64,000 nt of DNA, taken from NCBI GenBank assembly GCA_016124575.1, contig WGNM01000023.1:1-64000 (forward strand), given 5' to 3'. Every line of letters begins with the position of its first letter. Positions within the stretch are counted from its first letter, which is position 1. Shown piece after piece: positions 8,701 to 35,022 of this stretch. The stretch is from Cryomorphaceae bacterium (lineage in GTDB: Bacteria > Bacteroidota > Bacteroidia > Flavobacteriales_D > Sanyastnellaceae). The notes beneath the pieces were generated by a model. The model saw only the letters and a list, made by a program, of their open reading frames with translations, did not search any database and was not told the DNA's origin. Made by a program: the position numbers and the translations under genes.

Positions 8701-10780
8701 CATGTGGAGGATGCATAGTTTTCAATATGTAGCCGGCGAAACAGGCTGGGGACAAGCACATTTCGATCAGTTTAAGAGTCTGAATTTTTCGAAAATCAAC
8801 TACAACGAAAATCAACAAACCTTTGATTTTGAAACCGGCACTGTTGACCTTAAATGCACTGTTTATGGCTTACCCGCCGATGTTTTCGAGCTCAACGGAA
8901 CACGGTATCAGATTGATCTGGAAGTGATGGAATACGGCGGCTGCGGAAATACCCCCGCACTGCACGTTGCAGTGCTCGACCCTATAACACTAGAGCCTTG
9001 GCAGACAAACTACAACAACCTATTTCCTGAAAATGATTTTGGAAACTTGATCGACTGCACCATCGGCCGAAACAGGCCCGAGAAATACTTTATTTTTAGA
9101 CAGAACAACGCTGCAGAGCTTGAAGGCATGATCGACATGTTGAACAATCACGTGCCTGACGGACATCACATTCTAATCTATACTTGGCGGTACGCGAATT
9201 ACGATGGCTGGGATCTTAACGCCCCAAGCGTTTATAATTTGTTCAACACCCTAGGGAGCACCCAAATAGGTCAAGGTCTTGACAGCGTGCCTTTCATCTA
9301 TTATGGTATCAAGGGAAATCCAAGCTCTGTTGTAGAACAAGTAGGTACAGATATTTCTCAATTACTTGAAATCACTGTGCCCCTATCTGGTAGTTTGGGC
9401 GTGGGGAATGTTGTTAGTCCTACCTTCGGTCCATCATCACATTGGGATGCACTATACTGGGAATTCGAACAAACACCAAGCGATAGTGCAGGTATTCGCA
9501 TAGTGGGTCTCAATCCTCTTGCACAAGAGTTGCTCGTTACCGACGCATTGCCGGGTGAGGTAACTGATCTAGAGACACTCCTTCCCTCAAACAGCTTCTC
9601 CAATTTAAGATTGCGTGCCGATTTGATTGACCCGCAAAATCAGACCCCACCTCAATTGAAGCGTTGGCAACTGCTGAGCGACCACGCCCCTGAATGTGCT
9701 TTAAACCCCTTGCGGGGATTTTACTTTCCGAAAGACACCATTCAGCAAGGAGAGCCTCTTCCAATAGCCATAGCCATTGAGAACATAGGGGCTGTCGACA
9801 TGGATAGTTTGTTGGTTGGATACCGCGTGATTGCCTCTGGGCAAGAGCCGTTTGAAATACCTTACCCACGAAGCGACAGCTTGCGGGTGGGTGAAGTATT
9901 GCTAGATACAGCTTACATAGATACGCACTCATTTTCGGGCGCGTTGACCTTGCGTGTTGAAGCCAACAAGCGCGATGCAAATGGTAATCCAGATCAAATG
10001 GAGCAATACGCATTTAACAACATTGCTGAACTTCGCTTTTTCGTTGTTGAAGATAAGATCAACCCCTTGTTAGATGTCACCTTCGATGGCCGCCACATAC
10101 TAAATGGTGAACTCGTATCTCCTACACCCCTAATCTCAGCTTTGCTGGATGATGAAAACCCTTACTTCTTACTGAGCGAACCTGCTGACACAGCAAATTT
10201 TAAAGTCTTCATCACCCACCCAAGTGGAATACAATACCCTGTCTATTTCAGTGATTTCGCTGTCTTGAATTTTGTCCCCGCTACCGGCACAAACAACAGA
10301 AGTCAGATACAATACACACCTCGTTTTGAAGACAACGGCACCTACCGCTTGCTTGTGCAAGCTCGCGACAAAAGCGGAAACACATCTGGTGACCGCGACT
10401 ACCGTATTGATTTCGAAGTGAACACCAAGCCATCCATCACCGAAGTCGTCAATTACCCGAATCCATTTAGCACCCGCACCCAATTTGTATTTACCATCAC
10501 CGGCACCCAGCCACCTGATGAAATGCTCATCCGCATTATGACAGTGAGCGGCGCTGTAGTGCGAGAAATTCGTGCCGATGAACTTGGCCCATTGCGCATT
10601 GGGAACAACCGCACGGAGTTTTGGTGGGATGGGACAGATATGTTTGGCGACAGATTGGCCAATGGTATATACTTGTATACGGTGCAGGCAAGACTTCGCG
10701 GACAAGATCTGGATTTGAATGCTGGCGACGCTGCAGGATTCTTCACCAAAGGAGTTGGCAAAATGTACCTTTTGCGATAA
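5768..10780 (+). CDS. giant C25 (gingipain-family) peptidase, PorU-related, with FlgD-like C-terminus
   Basis: A 1670-residue secreted protein. Residues 1-18 are a signal peptide ending QSQA. The N-terminal part is the beta-rich region seen in PorU-like proteins. The C25 caspase-like domain covers about residues 415-765 and keeps both catalytic residues: H638 in FFGHAS and C668 in GNSCYTG, plus the final LHGDPAL motif. Next come a CARDB/Ig-like domain (~775-870), a long middle region of unknown function, and a FlgD-type Ig-like domain at ~1560-1670 with NYPNPF and a GT-D-x-x-G-D-x-L-ANGIYLY ending. PorU, the T9SS sortase, is normally ~1100-1300 residues, so this is a longer relative. It may be a second sortase-like enzyme or a secreted protease. 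The gene stands alone between plsC and a bacilliredoxin gene. Confidence 0.85.
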   Translation: MRLFLLFVVTLFTLQSQAQFANDWVDYSRQYWKFQIAQSGIYKVTYSQLLQAGFPVNTVNPSDIRFYARGQEVDVRAHVTDDGSFDVGDYFEIYALKNDGWLDAQIYTDPTKQANAAYSLFNDTAQYFITFTPNSQGARTQVYTTSTDLAQLSPSPYVNFTLRENYNAEYQLGKQDVNGISLPWYEEGEGWSDTRFPKGQTRTKNISTASAYTQPGAPNALIEATSMGASLAPGSFNHHLQVGYGSPFQVMVDTIFYGYQLNKLSFEIPTSQLSSTTSISHRSVDDIGALTDFNAIASIQITYPRLPTFAGSGIASFKIPNFNSTAEGRLDLSGINVSNPRLFVGKTDLIYEIPLVPNGNAYSAILPFAGSNDLEVVLTSDASIIEIQNIKPVTQTGYFTNYAANPVDSAFLMITHHKLMAAAQAYAFHRESQGLSVVLTDIDELYMQYGYGIAKHPLAIRNFCRHLIQTWPSAPSHLFIVGKSIHEMKISNTVGARDNIEHYESNLVPSWGYPTSDIVFTSGLGTSLYEPAIPTGRLAANNEQQLQDYLVKVVQFENQPPAAWKKRVLHFGGGGNAFEQGLFSGYLDNYQQIVQDTCFGGDVYSFYKTTTEPIQLNMGSQISELINGGVSLMTFFGHASSTGFDINIDSPADYNNEGKYPLLIGNSCYTGNIHLQTTNSASEVFVLAPNAGTIGFIAKPDLGAPTYLNIWTENFYRQIFQQSYGASIGQCMQRAVQAFQTPNQTLFNTNTILTFSLHGDPALVLNSAPLPDYSIEIDEVLFSPENVTNELETFDVQVVVNNIGKATNTPFSVELIRHLPNGIDTSLVQQVNAIYFRDTITFTLPIDPINGIGLNLFDVYVDYPSQLVDELNDISNNIVSGKELLITSGNLIPVYPYNFAIEPNNSIVLKANTGNPFAVESAYQMQLDTVDTFDSPFLQTFQTTQIGGVIEWPITMSLENNVVYFWRAAAVATIGQETMWRMHSFQYVAGETGWGQAHFDQFKSLNFSKINYNENQQTFDFETGTVDLKCTVYGLPADVFELNGTRYQIDLEVMEYGGCGNTPALHVAVLDPITLEPWQTNYNNLFPENDFGNLIDCTIGRNRPEKYFIFRQNNAAELEGMIDMLNNHVPDGHHILIYTWRYANYDGWDLNAPSVYNLFNTLGSTQIGQGLDSVPFIYYGIKGNPSSVVEQVGTDISQLLEITVPLSGSLGVGNVVSPTFGPSSHWDALYWEFEQTPSDSAGIRIVGLNPLAQELLVTDALPGEVTDLETLLPSNSFSNLRLRADLIDPQNQTPPQLKRWQLLSDHAPECALNPLRGFYFPKDTIQQGEPLPIAIAIENIGAVDMDSLLVGYRVIASGQEPFEIPYPRSDSLRVGEVLLDTAYIDTHSFSGALTLRVEANKRDANGNPDQMEQYAFNNIAELRFFVVEDKINPLLDVTFDGRHILNGELVSPTPLISALLDDENPYFLLSEPADTANFKVFITHPSGIQYPVYFSDFAVLNFVPATGTNNRSQIQYTPRFEDNGTYRLLVQARDKSGNTSGDRDYRIDFEVNTKPSITEVVNYPNPFSTRTQFVFTITGTQPPDEMLIRIMTVSGAVVREIRADELGPLRIGNNRTEFWWDGTDMFGDRLANGIYLYTVQARLRGQDLDLNAGDAAGFFTKGVGKMYLLR

Positions 10781-10855
10781 TACGCTTGAAAGCATGTGAA
10801 GGTCAAAAAATACTAAATCTCAACCCCAAAGTGAAGGCCAAAGCCCTTCACATTG

Positions 10856-10863
10856 TACCTTTG
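10856..10863 (+). promoter_or_regulatory. -7 box for the bacilliredoxin gene
   Basis: TACCTTTG matches TAnnTTTG and lies 16 bp before the ATG at 10880. Its position also argues against an upstream in-frame ATG at 10853, which would overlap the promoter. Confidence 0.6.
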
Positions 10864-10879
10864 TAAAAATTTAGAACTC

Positions 10880-11290
10880 ATGTACCCTCCTGAATTAGTT
10901 GCCCCAATGAAGCAAGACCTTACACAGGTTGGCTTCGCCGAATTGATTACTGCTGACGATGTAGACAATGCATTGAAAACTGAAGGAACAACATTGGTGG
11001 TATTAAATAGTGTTTGTGGCTGCGCGGCCGGTTCGATGCGTCCAGGAGTCAAATTGGCTTTGAACAACACCAAATTACCAAATCAACTAACCACTGCATT
11101 TGCGGGTGTAGACCGAGACGCTGTTGATCGCGCGCGCAAATATATGTTGCCATACCCTCCGTCATCACCTGCCATTGGTATTTTTAAAAATGGCAAATTG
11201 ATGCACATGGTTGAACGCCATCACATTGAAGGACGGTCAGCCGAGATGATTGCCGAGCATTTGAAAGCAGCCTTCGACGAATTCTGCTAA
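10880..11290 (+). CDS. BrxA/BrxB family bacilliredoxin-like protein
   Basis: A 136-residue thioredoxin-fold protein of the YphP/YqiW (DUF1094) family. Bacilliredoxins remove bacillithiol from S-bacillithiolated proteins through a CGC motif; here the motif is C46-G-C48 in NSVCGCAAGSMRP, followed by the family features RPGVKLAL and PYPPSSPAIGIFKNG. The start at MYPPELV is chosen because it matches the family N-terminus and lies just after a -7 box. Bacillithiol is used by many Bacteroidota, so the assigned chemistry is plausible; no bacillithiol biosynthesis gene is visible in the window. It is followed by a strong terminator and so is a single-gene unit. Confidence 0.9.
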   Translation: MYPPELVAPMKQDLTQVGFAELITADDVDNALKTEGTTLVVLNSVCGCAAGSMRPGVKLALNNTKLPNQLTTAFAGVDRDAVDRARKYMLPYPPSSPAIGIFKNGKLMHMVERHHIEGRSAEMIAEHLKAAFDEFC

Positions 11291-11310
11291 AGAAATCAAA
11301 ATTTAAAAAA

Positions 11311-11346
11311 GACGGCCTCTGATACAATTCTCAGGCCGTCTTTTTC
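11311..11346 (+). terminator. intrinsic terminator after the bacilliredoxin gene
   Basis: GACGGCCT/AGGCCGTC stem with a 14-base loop that can pair further (CTGA/TCA), preceded by A-rich and followed by T-rich sequence. Confidence 0.85.
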
Positions 11347-11401
11347 ATTGTGCCCCTTTCAGCACATTTGATTTCGTATTTTCGTGGCTCAATTATCAAA
11401 C

Positions 11402-12382
11402 ATGGCGCGTATACTTACAGGGGTGCAAAGCACAGGTACACCACACCTCGGAAATCTTTTGGGTGCAATTCTGCCGGCAATCGAGTTATCGAATCAACCG
11501 GGGAACGACTCGTTTCTGTTCATTGCCGACATGCATTCACTCACACAGATTAAGGATGGTGCATTGTTACGAAATCATACCTACTCGGTTGCTGCAACAT
11601 GGTTGGCTTGCGGGCTGGATCCAGAAAAAACTGTGTTTTACCGCCAATCAGACGTTCCTGAAGCTGCAGAGCTGGCATGGATTCTTTCGTGTTATTTTCC
11701 ATATCAGCGATTGACCCTTGCGCATTCCTTCAAAGACAAAGCCGACCGCCTAGAAGATGTAAATGCTGGATTGTTCTATTATCCAATGCTCATGGCTGCC
11801 GACATCTTATTGTACGATGCTAATGAGGTTCCTGTTGGGAAAGACCAGCTTCAACACCTCGAAATTACACGCGATGTAGCTTCGCGATTTAACAACCAAA
11901 TGGGTGAAACCTTCGTGATTCCATATGCGCGGGTTCAACAAGAAACCATGTATGTAATTGGTACCGACGGACAAAAAATGAGCAAGTCGAGAGACAATTT
12001 TATCAATATTTTTCTTTCAGACAAAGAGTTAAAAGATACCATCAACAAGAAAATCGTTACAGATACCACCCCGCTGGAAGAGCCTAAAGATCCCGATTCA
12101 GCAACCGTTTACCAGCTATACAAACTTGTCGCATCCGCCGATCAGGCGAACGAAATGGCTACGAAACTTCGCGCAGGAGGCTACGGTTGGGGCCATGCCA
12201 AGAAAGACTTATTCGAAGCCATTGTAACACGGTTTCAGAAAGAGCGCGAAACGTACAATTCACTCATGTCAGACAAATCACAAATAGACAAAGTGCTCGC
12301 CAGTGGTGCTCAAAAAGCCCGCATCGTTGCTCACGAAGTGCTCGGTAGAGCTCGAAAAGTAAGCGGATTCGGACAGTCATAG
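11402..12382 (+). CDS. trpS: tryptophanyl-tRNA synthetase
   Basis: Charges tRNA-Trp. The 326-residue class I synthetase starts with RILTGVQSTGTPHLGN, where TPHLGN is the HIGH-type signature, and carries the KMSKS loop in DGQKMSKSRDN, plus the conserved PVGKDQLQHLE segment. Length is normal for bacterial TrpRS. The ATG at 11402 is preferred; an in-frame GTG at 11384 would add six residues not seen in the family. It is followed after 72 bp by a DUF4139-family gene in the same direction. Confidence 0.97.
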   Translation: MARILTGVQSTGTPHLGNLLGAILPAIELSNQPGNDSFLFIADMHSLTQIKDGALLRNHTYSVAATWLACGLDPEKTVFYRQSDVPEAAELAWILSCYFPYQRLTLAHSFKDKADRLEDVNAGLFYYPMLMAADILLYDANEVPVGKDQLQHLEITRDVASRFNNQMGETFVIPYARVQQETMYVIGTDGQKMSKSRDNFINIFLSDKELKDTINKKIVTDTTPLEEPKDPDSATVYQLYKLVASADQANEMATKLRAGGYGWGHAKKDLFEAIVTRFQKERETYNSLMSDKSQIDKVLASGAQKARIVAHEVLGRARKVSGFGQS

Positions 12383-29425: not shown

Positions 29426-30640
29426 ATGCGTGAACGATCCATCATGCACATGGACTTAGATACCTTCTTCGTCTCTGTGGAGCGACTGCAAGACAGTCGG
29501 CTTAACAACAAGCCCATCCTCATCGGAGGAACCACCGACCGCGGGGTTGTAGCCTCGTGCAGCTACGAGGCTCGTCGCTTCGGTATACACGCCGGTATGC
29601 CCATGAAAATGGCCCGCAATCTCTGTCCAGAAGCAACCATTATTCGCGGCAACTCCATGAACTACCTGAAATACTCCGACATGGTAACAGAAATTGTGCG
29701 TGAAGCCGTTCCTGTTTTTGAAAAAAGTTCCATCGATGAGTTTTATACAGACCTCACCGGCATGGACCGTTTTTATGGTTGTTACAAATTTGCAGGTGAG
29801 CTTCGGACAAGAATCATAAAGGAAACCGGACTTCCAATCTCGCTTGGGCTGTCAACCTCCAAAACAGTGTCGAAAGTAGCTACGGGCGAGGCAAAGCCGA
29901 ACAATCAGATACAAATCACCCGCGGACAGGAGCAATCTTTCCTTGCACCATTGTCGATCCGTAAAATACCCATGGTTGGAGAAAAAACCTACCAAACCCT
30001 ACGCAACCTCGGTGTGAAAATCGTTCAAACCATCCAAGAGATGCCCCCTGAACTGATGGAAAACGTACTGGGCCAAAATGGCATTGTTATTTGGAAAAAG
30101 TCACGTGGTGACGACGAGAGTGCTGTCGTGCCCTATTCTGAACGGAAATCTATTTCCACCGAACGCACCTTCGATCGCGACACCATCGACGTCGATAAGC
30201 TGCGCGGCATCCTAATCGCCATCGCTGAAAATTTAGCCTTCCAACTGCGAAGAGGAAACAAACTTACCGCCTGCGTAACCATGAAGATTCGCTATGCCGA
30301 TTTCAACACACATAGCCAACAAATGAAAATACCTTACACCGCGGCTGACCACCATCTCATACCAAAAGTCCTCGAACTATTCGAAAAACTCTACAATCGC
30401 CGACTATTGGTGCGCTTGGTAGGTGTGCGATTCAGCCATCTCGTAGGTGGCGGATACCAAATCAACCTGTTCGACGATAGCGAAGAGCGCATTCGGCTGT
30501 ACGAAGCCATGGACAAAATGCGGATCCGCTACGGAGACAGGGCTGTAGTAAGTGCTGCAGGAATGTCTGCAAGAAGCATTGGCCGCTCAAACCCTTTTGA
30601 TGGCGGTCCACCACTGCTGCTGGCCAATAGAAGGCAGTGA
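29426..30640 (+). CDS. dinB: DNA polymerase IV (Y-family translesion polymerase)
   Basis: Copies across damaged DNA at low fidelity. The 404-residue protein starts with the Y-family motif IMHMDLDTFFVSVERL (catalytic D10), has the second metal site SIDEF (D104, E105), helix-hairpin-helix segments (KIPMVGEKTYQTLRNLG), a little-finger domain, and a QINLF clamp-binding motif near the C-terminus that would tether it to the beta sliding clamp. Length is normal and the gene is intact. Its promoter shares a 34-bp element with that of the SRAP-dnaE pair. These three genes are commonly grouped; here ~10 kb of accessory DNA separates them. Confidence 0.95.
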   Translation: MRERSIMHMDLDTFFVSVERLQDSRLNNKPILIGGTTDRGVVASCSYEARRFGIHAGMPMKMARNLCPEATIIRGNSMNYLKYSDMVTEIVREAVPVFEKSSIDEFYTDLTGMDRFYGCYKFAGELRTRIIKETGLPISLGLSTSKTVSKVATGEAKPNNQIQITRGQEQSFLAPLSIRKIPMVGEKTYQTLRNLGVKIVQTIQEMPPELMENVLGQNGIVIWKKSRGDDESAVVPYSERKSISTERTFDRDTIDVDKLRGILIAIAENLAFQLRRGNKLTACVTMKIRYADFNTHSQQMKIPYTAADHHLIPKVLELFEKLYNRRLLVRLVGVRFSHLVGGGYQINLFDDSEERIRLYEAMDKMRIRYGDRAVVSAAGMSARSIGRSNPFDGGPPLLLANRRQ

Positions 30641-30738
30641 GAATTGATTTCAAGGTGCCCCCGCTAGCCCAGATTTAGACAAAACCCATTTACGCAAACG
30701 TCCTCTCAGCAACAGATTATTCTCCTTTCGGCGTTGGG

Positions 30739-31620
30739 TTGTATGGCAGAAGCTGGAGTGAGGGGTATAGGTTTGGGTTTAATGGGATGGAGAAGGATGA
30801 TGAAATGAAAGGTGATGGGAATAGTTGGAATTTTAAGTATCGAATGCATGATCCGCGGTTGGGGAGGTTCTTTGCGGTGGATCCGTTGACGGCGAAGTAT
30901 CCTTGGAATAGCCCGTATGCTTTTAGTGAGAATAAATTAATAAGTGCTATTGAATTAGAGGGATTGGAGGCTTGGGAGATTACAAAGGACTGGTCAGAAG
31001 TCACGATGGCTCATTTTGGTGAGTTTGTGAATGCAGAGTTGTCGGAATTGAATCAAATAGCGATGACAAAGGATTTTTCCCAATTAACAAGTAAAGAATC
31101 CTTTGATTGTGCGGATTTAATTGTGAATATGTTAGTTAAATTCGCTTCTAGAGAAGGTCTTCATCTGAAGTTATCTACATGGTATGGAGAAATAGATAGT
31201 AATGATCCCAAATATACCATCGGAGAAACTGATTTGTTTTTGGAAGATGCTAGAAATTCGGTAGGTCAGGAGCACCTTATAAAGGATTTTGTTCCAATAT
31301 TTCCTGATCAGGCGTTGACCGGTGATGCCGACTTTTCTGTTTTAGGACATGTCAGTTTAGTACGCGAATTTAGTGTCGACCCGGATGCCGATCGTCGAAG
31401 ACGAAATAACGGTTATACTTTAATTGTATCAGGAGATCAATCAGGGTTCCCTGGAACAGAAATTGACAATTCTACCCCAATGTATGATAGCAGATTTGTA
31501 TCAAGTAGTGGCTCAGATTTTAGAAGGTTTAAAATGTTTGGAACGCCTAAAATGGAGATTATTACTCCAAAACAGCCTGCTGAAATAAGATCGGAAATTT
31601 CAAAAGAATTATTAGAATGA
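30739..31620 (+). CDS. RHS core fragment with toxin-like tip (cassette 1)
   Basis: The frame is open from 30679 but has no canonical start; the first possible start is TTG at 30739, inside the RHS core. The N-terminal ~80 residues are RHS repeat-associated core (YGRSWSEGYRFGFNG, MHDPRLGRFFAVDP, YPWNSPYAFSENK). The rest is a variable tip. It contains SFDCADLIVNML and, later, GHVSLVREFS: a Cys plus a His in an order seen in NlpC/P60- or papain-like toxin domains, so a peptidase or amidase toxin is plausible but unproven. There is no signal peptide, and the RHS shell needed for delivery is missing, so this is an orphan cassette. It could be moved into a full RHS gene by recombination through the conserved core. 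The stop overlaps the next gene by four bases (ATGA). Confidence 0.7.
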   Translation: MYGRSWSEGYRFGFNGMEKDDEMKGDGNSWNFKYRMHDPRLGRFFAVDPLTAKYPWNSPYAFSENKLISAIELEGLEAWEITKDWSEVTMAHFGEFVNAELSELNQIAMTKDFSQLTSKESFDCADLIVNMLVKFASREGLHLKLSTWYGEIDSNDPKYTIGETDLFLEDARNSVGQEHLIKDFVPIFPDQALTGDADFSVLGHVSLVREFSVDPDADRRRRNNGYTLIVSGDQSGFPGTEIDNSTPMYDSRFVSSSGSDFRRFKMFGTPKMEIITPKQPAEIRSEISKELLE

Positions 31621-32300
31621 CGGTGTTTCTCAGAATAATGGCATTTATGCTAATTAGTAACCTCAATGCCCATGAAGGATGTTTTGAGTATGACTTGGTA
31701 ATTGATGACGCCAGAACAATAGAGCAGATGGATTCATCAGATTGCTTAAAAATAGAATCGTTATGGATTCATGATGATTTGATGGAAGAAATTCCTAATT
31801 CCATTATAAAATTTCGGAACTTGAAGAAACTGAGTCTAGATTATAGTATCAATTTAATGAGGATTGACTCAGTATTTATCTATTTTCCGAAGCTTACATA
31901 CCTTAACGTATCTCTAACTCGTGTCAAAGAACTGCCATCTTATGATAGAGAAGAAAAAGAACTAAAAGTACTTGTAATAAGAAAAACTGGAATTATTCAA
32001 TTGCCTGAAGGACTAACAAGTTTGTTGACTTTGGATGCGGGTAAAAGCGCTTTTGATTGTTCAGAATTGAATAAAGTTCCGATGCTACAAAACTTGGCCA
32101 TCAATGGTGATTCACTGGATTTTGATTGCCTAAATTTCTTGCGAAACTCGTCCATAAATACAATTGCCTTGGATGATAAGTATTCTTCGATTACATCTCT
32201 CAACCAAAATGCGAATATTCAACAAATTGATTTAAATGAGTTTAGAAAGAAGAAAATTTGTGCTCTTTTATCTGAACTCGAATCTTTACAGAAGTATTAA
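31617..32300 (+). CDS. leucine-rich-repeat-like protein, candidate immunity to cassette 1
   Basis: A 227-residue protein with a probable short signal peptide (MTVFLRIMAFMLISNLNA) and irregular leucine-rich repeats (IPNSIIKFRNLKKLSL, FPKLTYLNVSLTRVKELP, LKVLVIRKTGIIQLPEGL). It overlaps the RHS tip gene by four bases, the standard toxin-then-immunity arrangement of polymorphic toxin systems. Export fits a toxin acting in the periplasm, such as a peptidoglycan-cleaving enzyme. The immunity role is inferred from position only. Base composition is AT-rich compared with flanking chromosomal genes. Confidence 0.6.
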   Translation: MTVFLRIMAFMLISNLNAHEGCFEYDLVIDDARTIEQMDSSDCLKIESLWIHDDLMEEIPNSIIKFRNLKKLSLDYSINLMRIDSVFIYFPKLTYLNVSLTRVKELPSYDREEKELKVLVIRKTGIIQLPEGLTSLLTLDAGKSAFDCSELNKVPMLQNLAINGDSLDFDCLNFLRNSSINTIALDDKYSSITSLNQNANIQQIDLNEFRKKKICALLSELESLQKY

Positions 32301-32507
32301 GCTTTCGATTCCGCAGAGTATTTAAGTCGACTATTCGAAACGAACTGTGAACGGTCATCCTCAACCCTTGCGTGAAACCATAATCAAACTACAAACTTCA
32401 AAGCAGCTATAAAACCTGAAACTTGAATCGAATCAGCCCACTCACTCACCGAAACCACCCACATCAACCAAAACAATAATTACATTTATTCGCAGTTAGG
32501 AGAATTG

Positions 32508-34049
32508 ATGGTTGATGTTTCTGAAGAAATTGAAGAAATCGTCTGGCGTGTAGACAGTAAAATCGCCGAAGTCCGTCGCACAAGCGGCAGCACCAAGAAA
32601 AACCTCCGCTTTGACTACGACGCCATGGGCAACCGCATCGCCAAACACATCTTCGCCAACAACGCTTTCACCCAGTGGGAGCGTTCTACCTACTACGTGC
32701 GCGATGCCAGCGGTAACGTTATGGCCACCTATGAACGTGAAGCCACGGGTCAAGAGCCGCCTTCTTCCTTCCGTGTTACTGAACGGCACCTGTATGGAAG
32801 CTCAAGGCTGGGCATAGATGCTACACCGCATGAATTCATTGGATCCACCTACACCGCTTCAACCGAAGCAGTGCGTACCTTGGGCCACAAGCACTACGAA
32901 ATCTCCAACCACTTGGGCAATGTGCTATCGGTCATCACCGATCAAAAGTTGCCCGTGTTAGTTGACAGCACAGTGGTTTCGTATGCCGCTGTGGTGCTGT
33001 CTGCCACAGATTATTCTCCTTTTGGCGTTGGTTTGTATGGCAGGAACTGGAGTGAGGGGTACAGGTATGGGTTTCAGGGGCAGGAAAAGGATGATGAGGT
33101 GAAAGGAGAAAGCAATTCTCTCAACTACAAGTATAGAATGCATGATCCGAGGTTGGGGAGGTTCTTTGCGGTGGATCCGTTGGCTTATGATTATCCTTGG
33201 AATAGTCCGTTCGCATTTAGTGCAAATAGGGTTATAGATGGAGTTGAATTAGAGGGCAAGGAATTCCTTTATTCAGCAAATGGTGAGTTTCTTGGAAAAA
33301 TTGGTGATAAAACGACAATAGTTGTTTTGACAAATAAAGCGCTCATTACCTATTCCATTCAGAATACTGATAATGGTTACATTAGAAAGAAAAATATTGA
33401 AACGGGCCCGGAATATATCAATTTCATGCAAGCAGATGTTATATCAAGATCCAATGTGGCGAATTCAATTTTTCGAGAATTAATGGGATCCAATCATAAA
33501 AACACTACAGTCAACCTTGCTGAACCTGGTAAGGGATATATTGGCAATTGTGATTGTGATGGAAGTGGAAATAGCATTGATGGATCCGGAAATCCAACAA
33601 TAAATATTGCATCTGTGGATATATTCAATGATATGAACAACTTTAAGAGTATCTTATTGAAAGAATCTCAACACTTATCTGACGGATATTTATTAGGAGC
33701 AGATTCACAACGTGATCTCGAAGCGCACCATAAGATTCTTGGGTCAAATTATTGGTTGAATTCAACCAACGACTTCAAAAAGACGTTCCTTCAATCTGCA
33801 GGCAATGTTATTTGGAACTTTATGCAAGCCGGAATGAATAGCAAAGATGACAGTGAAAAAGCGAATTATGAGGGGTATGTTCAACGGATAACCACCATCT
33901 ATCGGAGTCAAGGTGTTGAGTTTGACTTTTCGAAACAGTTCAAAGCGTATAAATTTATGGGGGGACCTGACGGTAATGACGGTAATGGTGCTAGAATAAT
34001 TGGAGATCCTGAAAGTATAGGAGTTTCAGTCAATGGAGAAGAGTTATGA
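32508..34049 (+). CDS. RHS core fragment with tip domain (cassette 2)
   Basis: A 513-residue RHS fragment; the frame is open from 32427 and RHS-like sequence (YIYSQLGELM) precedes the chosen ATG, so the 5' end is a broken gene edge. Residues ~1-240 are RHS core: YD-type repeats (RFDYDAMGNRIAKH, TYYVRDASGNVMATYER), ISNHLGNVLSVITD, DYSPFGVGLYGR and MHDPRLGRFFAVDP. From ~ELEGKEF onward the tip is unrelated to cassette 1. It holds LLKESQHLSDG followed ~15 residues later by DLEAHHKIL, which looks like a zincin HExxH site with the first His replaced by Lys, so an inactive or altered peptidase is possible. Another short motif, GNCDCDGSGNS, is notable. The stop overlaps the next gene by four bases. 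Confidence 0.7.
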   Translation: MVDVSEEIEEIVWRVDSKIAEVRRTSGSTKKNLRFDYDAMGNRIAKHIFANNAFTQWERSTYYVRDASGNVMATYEREATGQEPPSSFRVTERHLYGSSRLGIDATPHEFIGSTYTASTEAVRTLGHKHYEISNHLGNVLSVITDQKLPVLVDSTVVSYAAVVLSATDYSPFGVGLYGRNWSEGYRYGFQGQEKDDEVKGESNSLNYKYRMHDPRLGRFFAVDPLAYDYPWNSPFAFSANRVIDGVELEGKEFLYSANGEFLGKIGDKTTIVVLTNKALITYSIQNTDNGYIRKKNIETGPEYINFMQADVISRSNVANSIFRELMGSNHKNTTVNLAEPGKGYIGNCDCDGSGNSIDGSGNPTINIASVDIFNDMNNFKSILLKESQHLSDGYLLGADSQRDLEAHHKILGSNYWLNSTNDFKKTFLQSAGNVIWNFMQAGMNSKDDSEKANYEGYVQRITTIYRSQGVEFDFSKQFKAYKFMGGPDGNDGNGARIIGDPESIGVSVNGEEL

Positions 34050-34582
34050 GAACAGTAAACCTATGTTTCATGGTTGCAGTTATGTCTTTATTCTCTTGCA
34101 AGCATGAGAAAGAGAATGCCATAAAACAGAATAATTTTACTGAGGAAGAAATAAACAAAGTTGTACTTCAGAATAGACAGATTGATTTAAGAACTTTTTG
34201 TGGTATAGTTCGTGGGTTACATGTTGAATCAAATTCAAATGAAATTGAATTTGATATTTGGGGTCGTTGCTCTGAAAGTCCTCCCAGTCCTATAGTGAGA
34301 AATGGAATTGGCGGGGAATATTGTGTGGTCTATATATCAGACTTTCAAGCCTTATTTAATGGTCAAGAATATGGAATTGGTGTTGAGTCAGAAATCTATC
34401 AGCATCTCTCCAATCATTGTTTAGGAAAATCAATTCTAATCCACAAGGACAATTGGAGAGAATTAAATGATGTTTATCTCTTTTTGGATCAGTTAGCAAG
34501 GACTCAAGAGGAAATTAAAATCGTTCTAGTCTATGAGAGTTCGGATTCACATCATTTCCAAGAGGAGGAATTAATTCAGTAA
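34046..34582 (+). CDS. lipoprotein, candidate immunity to cassette 2
   Basis: A 178-residue lipoprotein: signal peptide with lipobox SLFSC (Cys18) followed by a charged domain with several cysteines (RTFCGIV, IWGRCSES, GGEYCVVYI, NHCLGKS). It overlaps the RHS cassette 2 gene by four bases (ATGA). Placement directly after a toxin-like tip suggests an immunity protein that would protect the periplasm; no family is recognised. AT-rich like its partner. Confidence 0.6.
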   Translation: MRTVNLCFMVAVMSLFSCKHEKENAIKQNNFTEEEINKVVLQNRQIDLRTFCGIVRGLHVESNSNEIEFDIWGRCSESPPSPIVRNGIGGEYCVVYISDFQALFNGQEYGIGVESEIYQHLSNHCLGKSILIHKDNWRELNDVYLFLDQLARTQEEIKIVLVYESSDSHHFQEEELIQ

Positions 34583-34617
34583 TCTATTGAATTTTTTATT
34601 GAAATACTTTCTAGCAG

Positions 34618-34714
34618 ATATAGGTTTAATGGTGTGAAGAAGGATGATGGGCTGAAAGGAGAAAGCAATTCTCTCAACTACAAGTATAGAATGCATGATC
34701 CGCGGTTGGGGAGG
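34618..34714 (+). pseudogene. RHS core remnant 3, cut by an IS end
   Basis: Encodes YRFNGVKKDDGLKGESN and MHDPRLGR in frame, then stops matching exactly where an IS3-type end begins (34715). 50 bases (34653-34702) are identical to 33100-33149 of cassette 2. Both the upstream core and the tip are missing. Confidence 0.75.
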
Positions 34715-35022
34715 TGTAATGGTCGACCTCTTCAGGACAGTTTTCTCTCATACAGAAGTTGTTTATAGTTTTGATAGATGGGGCGCGGGGGATACTCATA
34801 GCTTAGTGGTTTTGTTCAACACTATGCTGCTTGTTTGTACAACTTTGCCGATGCGATTCTCCCAAGCGATGAATGCGACCTGCGTTGGTTGTAATAGTTT
34901 ATAAAGTCTTCACATTCTGTGAATAGCTCATGTCCATCGCTGCTAGGGTTAAGGCACGAGCGATCGTGCTTTTTGGTTCGAAAGAAACGCTCGATAAAAG
35001 CACTGTCAAATGCTCGCCTTTT
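34715..35022 (-). mobile_element. IS3-family remnant: transposase C-terminus and one terminus
   Basis: The minus strand from about 35022 to the stop at 34822-34824 encodes the C-terminal end of an IS3-type integrase: FDSAFIERFFRTKK, LNPSSDGHELF, FINYYNQRRSHSSLG. The likely terminus begins TGTAATGGTCGACC at 34715, directly joined to the RHS remnant. The rest of the element and its other end are gone, so it is not mobile. Confidence 0.7.

Follow-up and report, generated by a model that had tools for sequence, protein, structure and literature searches.

Orphan RHS cassette in a Cryomorphaceae genome encoding a candidate papain-like toxin tip and an apparently exported leucine-rich-repeat partner

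The window analysed here is the stretch of 64,000 nucleotides at positions 1 to 64,000 of contig WGNM01000023.1 of a Cryomorphaceae bacterium (assembly GCA_016124575.1). Within it, a gene that appears by inspection to encode a DNA polymerase IV-like protein ends at position 30640 and is followed by an open frame of 313 codons (30679-31620), which comprises a remnant of the Rhs-associated core and then a tip of 216 aa. Residues 14-95 of this frame matched positions 1-75 of the 76 positions of TIGR03696 (Rhs_assc_core) with 33.3 bits, just above the cut-off of 32.5 bits. As the match starts with the first position of the model, the remnant consists of the core domain, with nothing upstream of the core. 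The core shares 80% DNA identity over 251 bases (30712 to 30962) with the core of a second cassette (33006-33256), and identity is at background level by 30970, which indicates a sharp junction between core and tip. The core remnant, the sharp junction and the absence of the rest of the RHS gene confirm the view of the initial annotation that this is an orphan RHS tip.

The tip frame overlaps the gene for a leucine-rich-repeat (LRR) protein by the four nucleotides ATGA (31617-31620), an overlap common to several cassettes of the genome. Other cassettes also share the general layout, in which the RHS carrier part is missing and a small partner gene lies directly 3' of the tip. The GC content was 0.50 in the preceding gene, 0.44 in the core, 0.38 in the tip and 0.33 in the LRR gene, compared to 0.45 for the whole stretch; by composition, the AT-rich tip and LRR partner would resemble exchanged cassettes. 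The initial statement that the gene lacks any start codon holds upstream of the core, where none was found, but not inside the remnant, which contains an in-frame TTG at 30739 and an in-frame ATG at 30787. No match to a Bacteroidota-type promoter lay near the cassette; in the promoter scans, this motif occurred at chance level and the sigma-70 motif below chance.

Table 1 Features of the orphan cassette and of the neighbouring RHS remnants (positions refer to the window)
Feature	Position	Strand	Evidence or remarks
Rhs-associated core remnant, ends DPRLGRFFAVDP...IELEG	30712..30963	+	TIGR03696 33.3 bits; 80% DNA identity with 33006-33256
Tip, 216 aa, papain-like (DUF4846-related) candidate toxin domain	30970..31617	+	Relatives L030, L029, L028; DUF4846 link
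Tip residues Cys47; GD; His127	31108-31110; 31321-31326; 31348-31350	+	
LRR protein, 227 aa, signal-peptide-like N-terminus, candidate immunity gene	31617..32300	+	ATGA overlap with tip
Second orphan cassette, longer core remnant (~275 codons) and unrelated tip	32430..34049	+	TIGR03696 31.6 bits, just below cut-off
Partner of second tip, lipoprotein-like (lipobox-like ...LFSCKH)	34046..34582	+	ATGA overlap
Third core remnant, without tip, ends beside apparent IS3-type transposase remnant	34613..34717	+	

The Rhs core occurs at 12 places in the genome (G000), on contigs C13, C22, C46 and C61, which correspond to 11 cassettes of core, tip and partner (loci L014-L017) and one fragment. No full-length RHS gene was found in the genome, the longest open frame with a core measuring at most 551 aa, and RHS_repeat gave no match above its cut-off. 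The tip of the second cassette (33258-34049) contains an LLKESQHLSDG stretch and has no family match. Directly behind the third core fragment, an apparent IS3-type transposase remnant lies on the minus strand at 34800-35010. Two other tips carry HExxH motifs (L014:526-1560, LHELGHSGGLKH; L015, reverse complement 10412-11776, VHEVIHQLTERANH). Both are likely toxins of the metallopeptidase type, encoded with partners that appear to be exported proteins or lipoproteins.

The SFDCAD and GHVSLV motifs reported initially are present in the tip. The Pfam, NCBIfam and PHROGs models gave no match to the tip itself, and neither the tip nor its relatives matched NlpC/P60 (PF00877 / Tox-NLPC/P60) in Pfam or NCBIfam. 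There were no relatives in 114 genomes of the organism's own family, and a first scan of genome contigs, two viral scans and further plasmid and phage searches also gave no match. The weak tblastn matches L019-L025 resemble ordinary housekeeping proteins, lack the motifs and were rejected as chance; a plasmid match (H1, Sphingomonas DUF5623, E 6e-3) without RHS or toxin context was likewise rejected.

Relatives were identified in three other genomes. The first (L030, also recorded as L018/L027), from a Flavobacteriales metagenome-assembled genome (MAG), consists of an RHS core and tip (332 aa), and its frame is truncated directly behind a tyrosine-recombinase-like gene. The second (L029), from a Bernardetia MAG, is not an RHS protein; it is an effector of 349 aa encoded beside a TssD/Hcp gene of a type VI secretion system (T6SS). 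The third (L028), from another family of the same class, is again an RHS core with a tip and also truncated. Neither the tip nor L030 had a relative in a sequence search of the PDB. The tyrosine-recombinase-like gene (L030:4605-5708) overlaps the start of the orphan tip frame and might relate to cassette movement. The island around the effector of L029 (L029:3066-10713) encodes TssD, a metallopeptidase-like protein, a lipoprotein, the papain-like effector and two partner paralogues, followed by a papain-like fragment without the Cys part and two more partner paralogues. In the genome under study, TssD gave no match in a scan whose controls were also silent, yet the same TssD/Hcp model matches the neighbour of L029 at E 6.9e-23.

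Pairwise scores set against 1000 shuffles show that the tip is homologous to L030 and L029 (z of 16.8 and 17.0, respectively, p ~2e-10; L030 with L029, 15.2). L028 scored a z of about 9.7 with L030 or L029 and 4.3 with the tip. All four proteins share W-x5-W and (F/D)DCA(D/N), the former directly behind the core or, in L029, behind a different N-terminus. The tip, L030 and L029 further align at GHV/WHV/KHV and at V(S/Q)G, with C47 and H127 in register; in L028, DDCAN is followed later by NHAMTI, and the alignment is secure only over the Cys part. A GD motif is present as TGDAD in the tip, AGDMY in L030 and PGDIV in L028, while L029 has DGKIY instead. The alignments A2 and A5, which misplace the His region, were left out of these motif comparisons. 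Given that relatives elsewhere keep the Cys and His motifs, the two motifs reflect more than chance.

L030 also matched the family DUF4846 (PF16138; E 1.5e-4, 21.8 bits, below the Pfam gathering score of 37). We compared the tip family with a profile of nine DUF4846 proteins from relatives, in which QCADA, YAG, GD and GGSPGH motifs are present. The profile-profile score was 41.9, compared to a mean of 13.9 (sd 2.6, maximum 22.5) for 150 column shuffles and 15.3 for the reversed profile, and the alignment paired CAD with CAD and GD...H with GD...H unprompted. In leave-one-out comparisons by hhalign, the tip alone scored 15.4 and the tip with L029 17.3. Since both values are at control level once L030 is removed, the link of the tip to DUF4846 is transitive, through L030. 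The two families are alike in the CAD at the Cys, the YAG helix and the GD followed by a GH/WH strand, and in the significant match of L030 to a family of exported proteins. They differ in that DUF4846 is a stand-alone exported protein in the relatives, unlike a toxin tip, and in that the tip alone gave no match to PF16138 in the Pfam scan. In the literature searched, no toxin role was found for DUF4846. The family has been classed as papain-like, and its GD motif (cluster II, strand 1) led to the proposal that it is NlpC/P60-like (PMC10318531). The proposal of an NlpC/P60- or papain-like hydrolase is thus strengthened by the conserved motifs and by the DUF4846 link via L030, but not by any match to an NlpC/P60 model.

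Modelling of the two proteins alone, as the initial annotation had suggested, yielded no usable structure. AlphaFold models of the tip (from four sequences) and of the LRR protein (from a single sequence) had low confidence (pLDDT of 42 and 51, respectively), and Foldseek returned no match at E below 0.001 for the tip and none that was significant for the LRR protein. In the tip model, a helix (47-62) begins at Cys47 and a strand (128-132) follows His127. Such a placement would fit a papain-like core, although a model of this low confidence does not amount to proof.

The most likely activity of the tip would be that of a papain-like cysteine hydrolase, from a family distantly related to DUF4846 and probably acting as an NlpC/P60-like peptidase or amidase. 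Cys before His, the order seen in the tip, L030 and L029, is the canonical, peptidoglycan-acting one, whereas permuted NlpC/P60 toxins attack lipids (PMC12994826); this points to peptide or amide bonds of peptidoglycan as the target. Alternatively, a papain-like toxin could act on a lipid acyl bond or on a periplasmic or outer-membrane protein, or catalyse a transglutaminase or deamidase reaction, with unchanged logic of delivery and immunity. Consistent with this, phospholipases are known among the effectors of the NlpC/P60 superfamily (Tox-Act1, PMC12994826), and transglutaminases and other peptidases among the papain-like polymorphic toxins (PMC3482391); the substrate of DUF4846 itself is hypothetical, and the partner of L028 is a multi-pass membrane protein. 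However, the tip is non-permuted and the lipid-acting members described are permuted, and we consider another substrate unlikely, although worth keeping in mind.

Judged by its sequence, the product of 31617-32300 is clearly an LRR protein. It matched the LRRD1 chain 9ijj_4X (E 4.4e-12) and Pfam LRR_14 (E 3.7e-5, below the gathering score), and, by inspection and hydrophobicity, its N-terminus (MTVFLRIMAFMLISNLNA) resembles a signal peptide. The downstream overlapping gene had therefore been described correctly as LRR-like, and the N-terminus fits the description of its product as exported. The further argument, that an exported partner fits the protection of peptidoglycan in the periplasm, agrees with this N-terminus but loses weight in the context of the genome: 9-10 of the 11 cassette partners have a signal-peptide-like start, a lipobox stretch or a membrane anchor, so an exported partner is a trait of the whole arsenal and weak evidence for this tip. 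The relatives have unrelated partners, which are exported in L030, exported and present as four tandem paralogues in L029, and a multi-pass membrane protein in L028. No RHS core was found near any of the 29 related LRR loci examined, and the pairing of tip and LRR protein was thus seen once. Exported LRR proteins of ~200 aa are common in the organism's order away from RHS cores, and the LRR protein could be such an ordinary protein carried along behind the tip; this is quite improbable in view of the 4-nt overlap at the position where other cassettes carry their partner, the low GC content that matches the tip, and the recognition of Imm-LRR as an immunity class (PMC3482391).

Together, these results lead us to favour, with a probability of about 0.6, an orphan RHS toxin/immunity cassette in which the tip is a papain-like hydrolase acting in the periplasm and the exported LRR protein is its immunity protein. 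Recombination within the conserved core could move the tip onto a full RHS carrier, or another system could deliver it; the gene of L029 lies beside TssD, which suggests that the T6SS also uses this domain as cargo. Once delivered, the tip would attack the peptidoglycan of rivals (or another periplasmic amide) via a Cys47-His127 site, and the exported LRR protein would bind and block the toxin in the periplasm of its owner. At its present site, the tip is probably translated little or not at all and would represent a spare part and a source of immunity. Orphan CdiA-CT modules of other bacteria encode working toxins and antidotes, their translation start signals are generally missing, and for the orphans of E. 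coli EC93 the immunity gene was shown to be expressed (PMC3150448). By analogy, the immunity gene may be the expressed part here.

The locus might instead be a pseudogene left by recombination, with tip and LRR gene neither expressed nor useful. The lack of a start upstream of the core and of a consensus promoter nearby, the neighbouring core fragment cut off beside the IS remnant and the missing full-length carrier would agree with such decay. Nevertheless, both frames are intact (313 and 227 codons), motifs and ATGA overlap are preserved, and 11 open-frame cassettes in one genome argue for maintenance. Considering that the assembly is fragmented into 61 contigs, and that C13 begins and C22 ends near RHS cassettes, the carrier could also be missing through assembly. 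We therefore regard decay as very doubtful.

Beyond the favoured reading of a toxin/immunity cassette, we see about an even chance that the tip represents a toxin family not recognised before, either a sister group or an offshoot of the exported DUF4846 proteins of Bacteroidota. The family would occur in both RHS tips and T6SS effectors and would be countered by four or more unrelated antidotes located in the envelope, among them the exported LRR protein.

Orphan CdiA-CT/CdiI and Rhs-CT/RhsI modules (PMC3150448, PMC3967940) resemble the present cassette in the detached tip with a carrier stub, the immunity candidate directly 3', the arrays of many modules, the disruption by IS elements and, for the stretch upstream of the core, the missing translation start. 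Here, in contrast, the host belongs to the Bacteroidota, no full-length carrier was found, the partners are mostly exported proteins or lipoproteins, and the toxin family is unrelated. Tox-NLPC/P60 tips of RHS proteins are likewise papain-like Cys-His domains; they occur in Bacteroidetes and delta-proteobacteria, with T6SS among their routes (PMC3482391); the tip studied here lacks a match to the NlpC/P60 models and is closer to DUF4846, and PMC3482391 records no immunity protein for Tox-NLPC/P60. Imm-LRR is likewise an LRR protein encoded beside polymorphic toxins, but it is listed beside T5SS toxins and in polyimmunity loci (PMC3482391), whereas the present protein is apparently exported and encoded beside an RHS papain-like tip. 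Hence, previous descriptions exist for orphan RHS arrays, for Tox-NLPC/P60 tips and for Imm-LRR. The suggestion that the pair may be new stands for the combination, as the two components were both catalogued in 2012 separately and not as a pair (PMC3482391). What appears undescribed is a toxin family related to DUF4846, its occurrence in RHS and T6SS contexts and its combination with an LRR protein.

The tip would add an unmodelled papain-like family to the polymorphic toxins. For DUF4846, whose exported members in Bacteroidota are unstudied, it gives a testable hint at a function. Should the tip family indeed be sister to or derived from DUF4846, it would provide a first indication that this family consists of envelope hydrolases, one branch of which has become a weapon. 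An antidote role of the LRR protein would mean that a solenoid can inhibit a peptidase-like toxin in the periplasm. Finally, a genome with 11 orphan cassettes in which no carrier was found lends itself well to the question of whether such arrays are weapon reserves or immunity collections.
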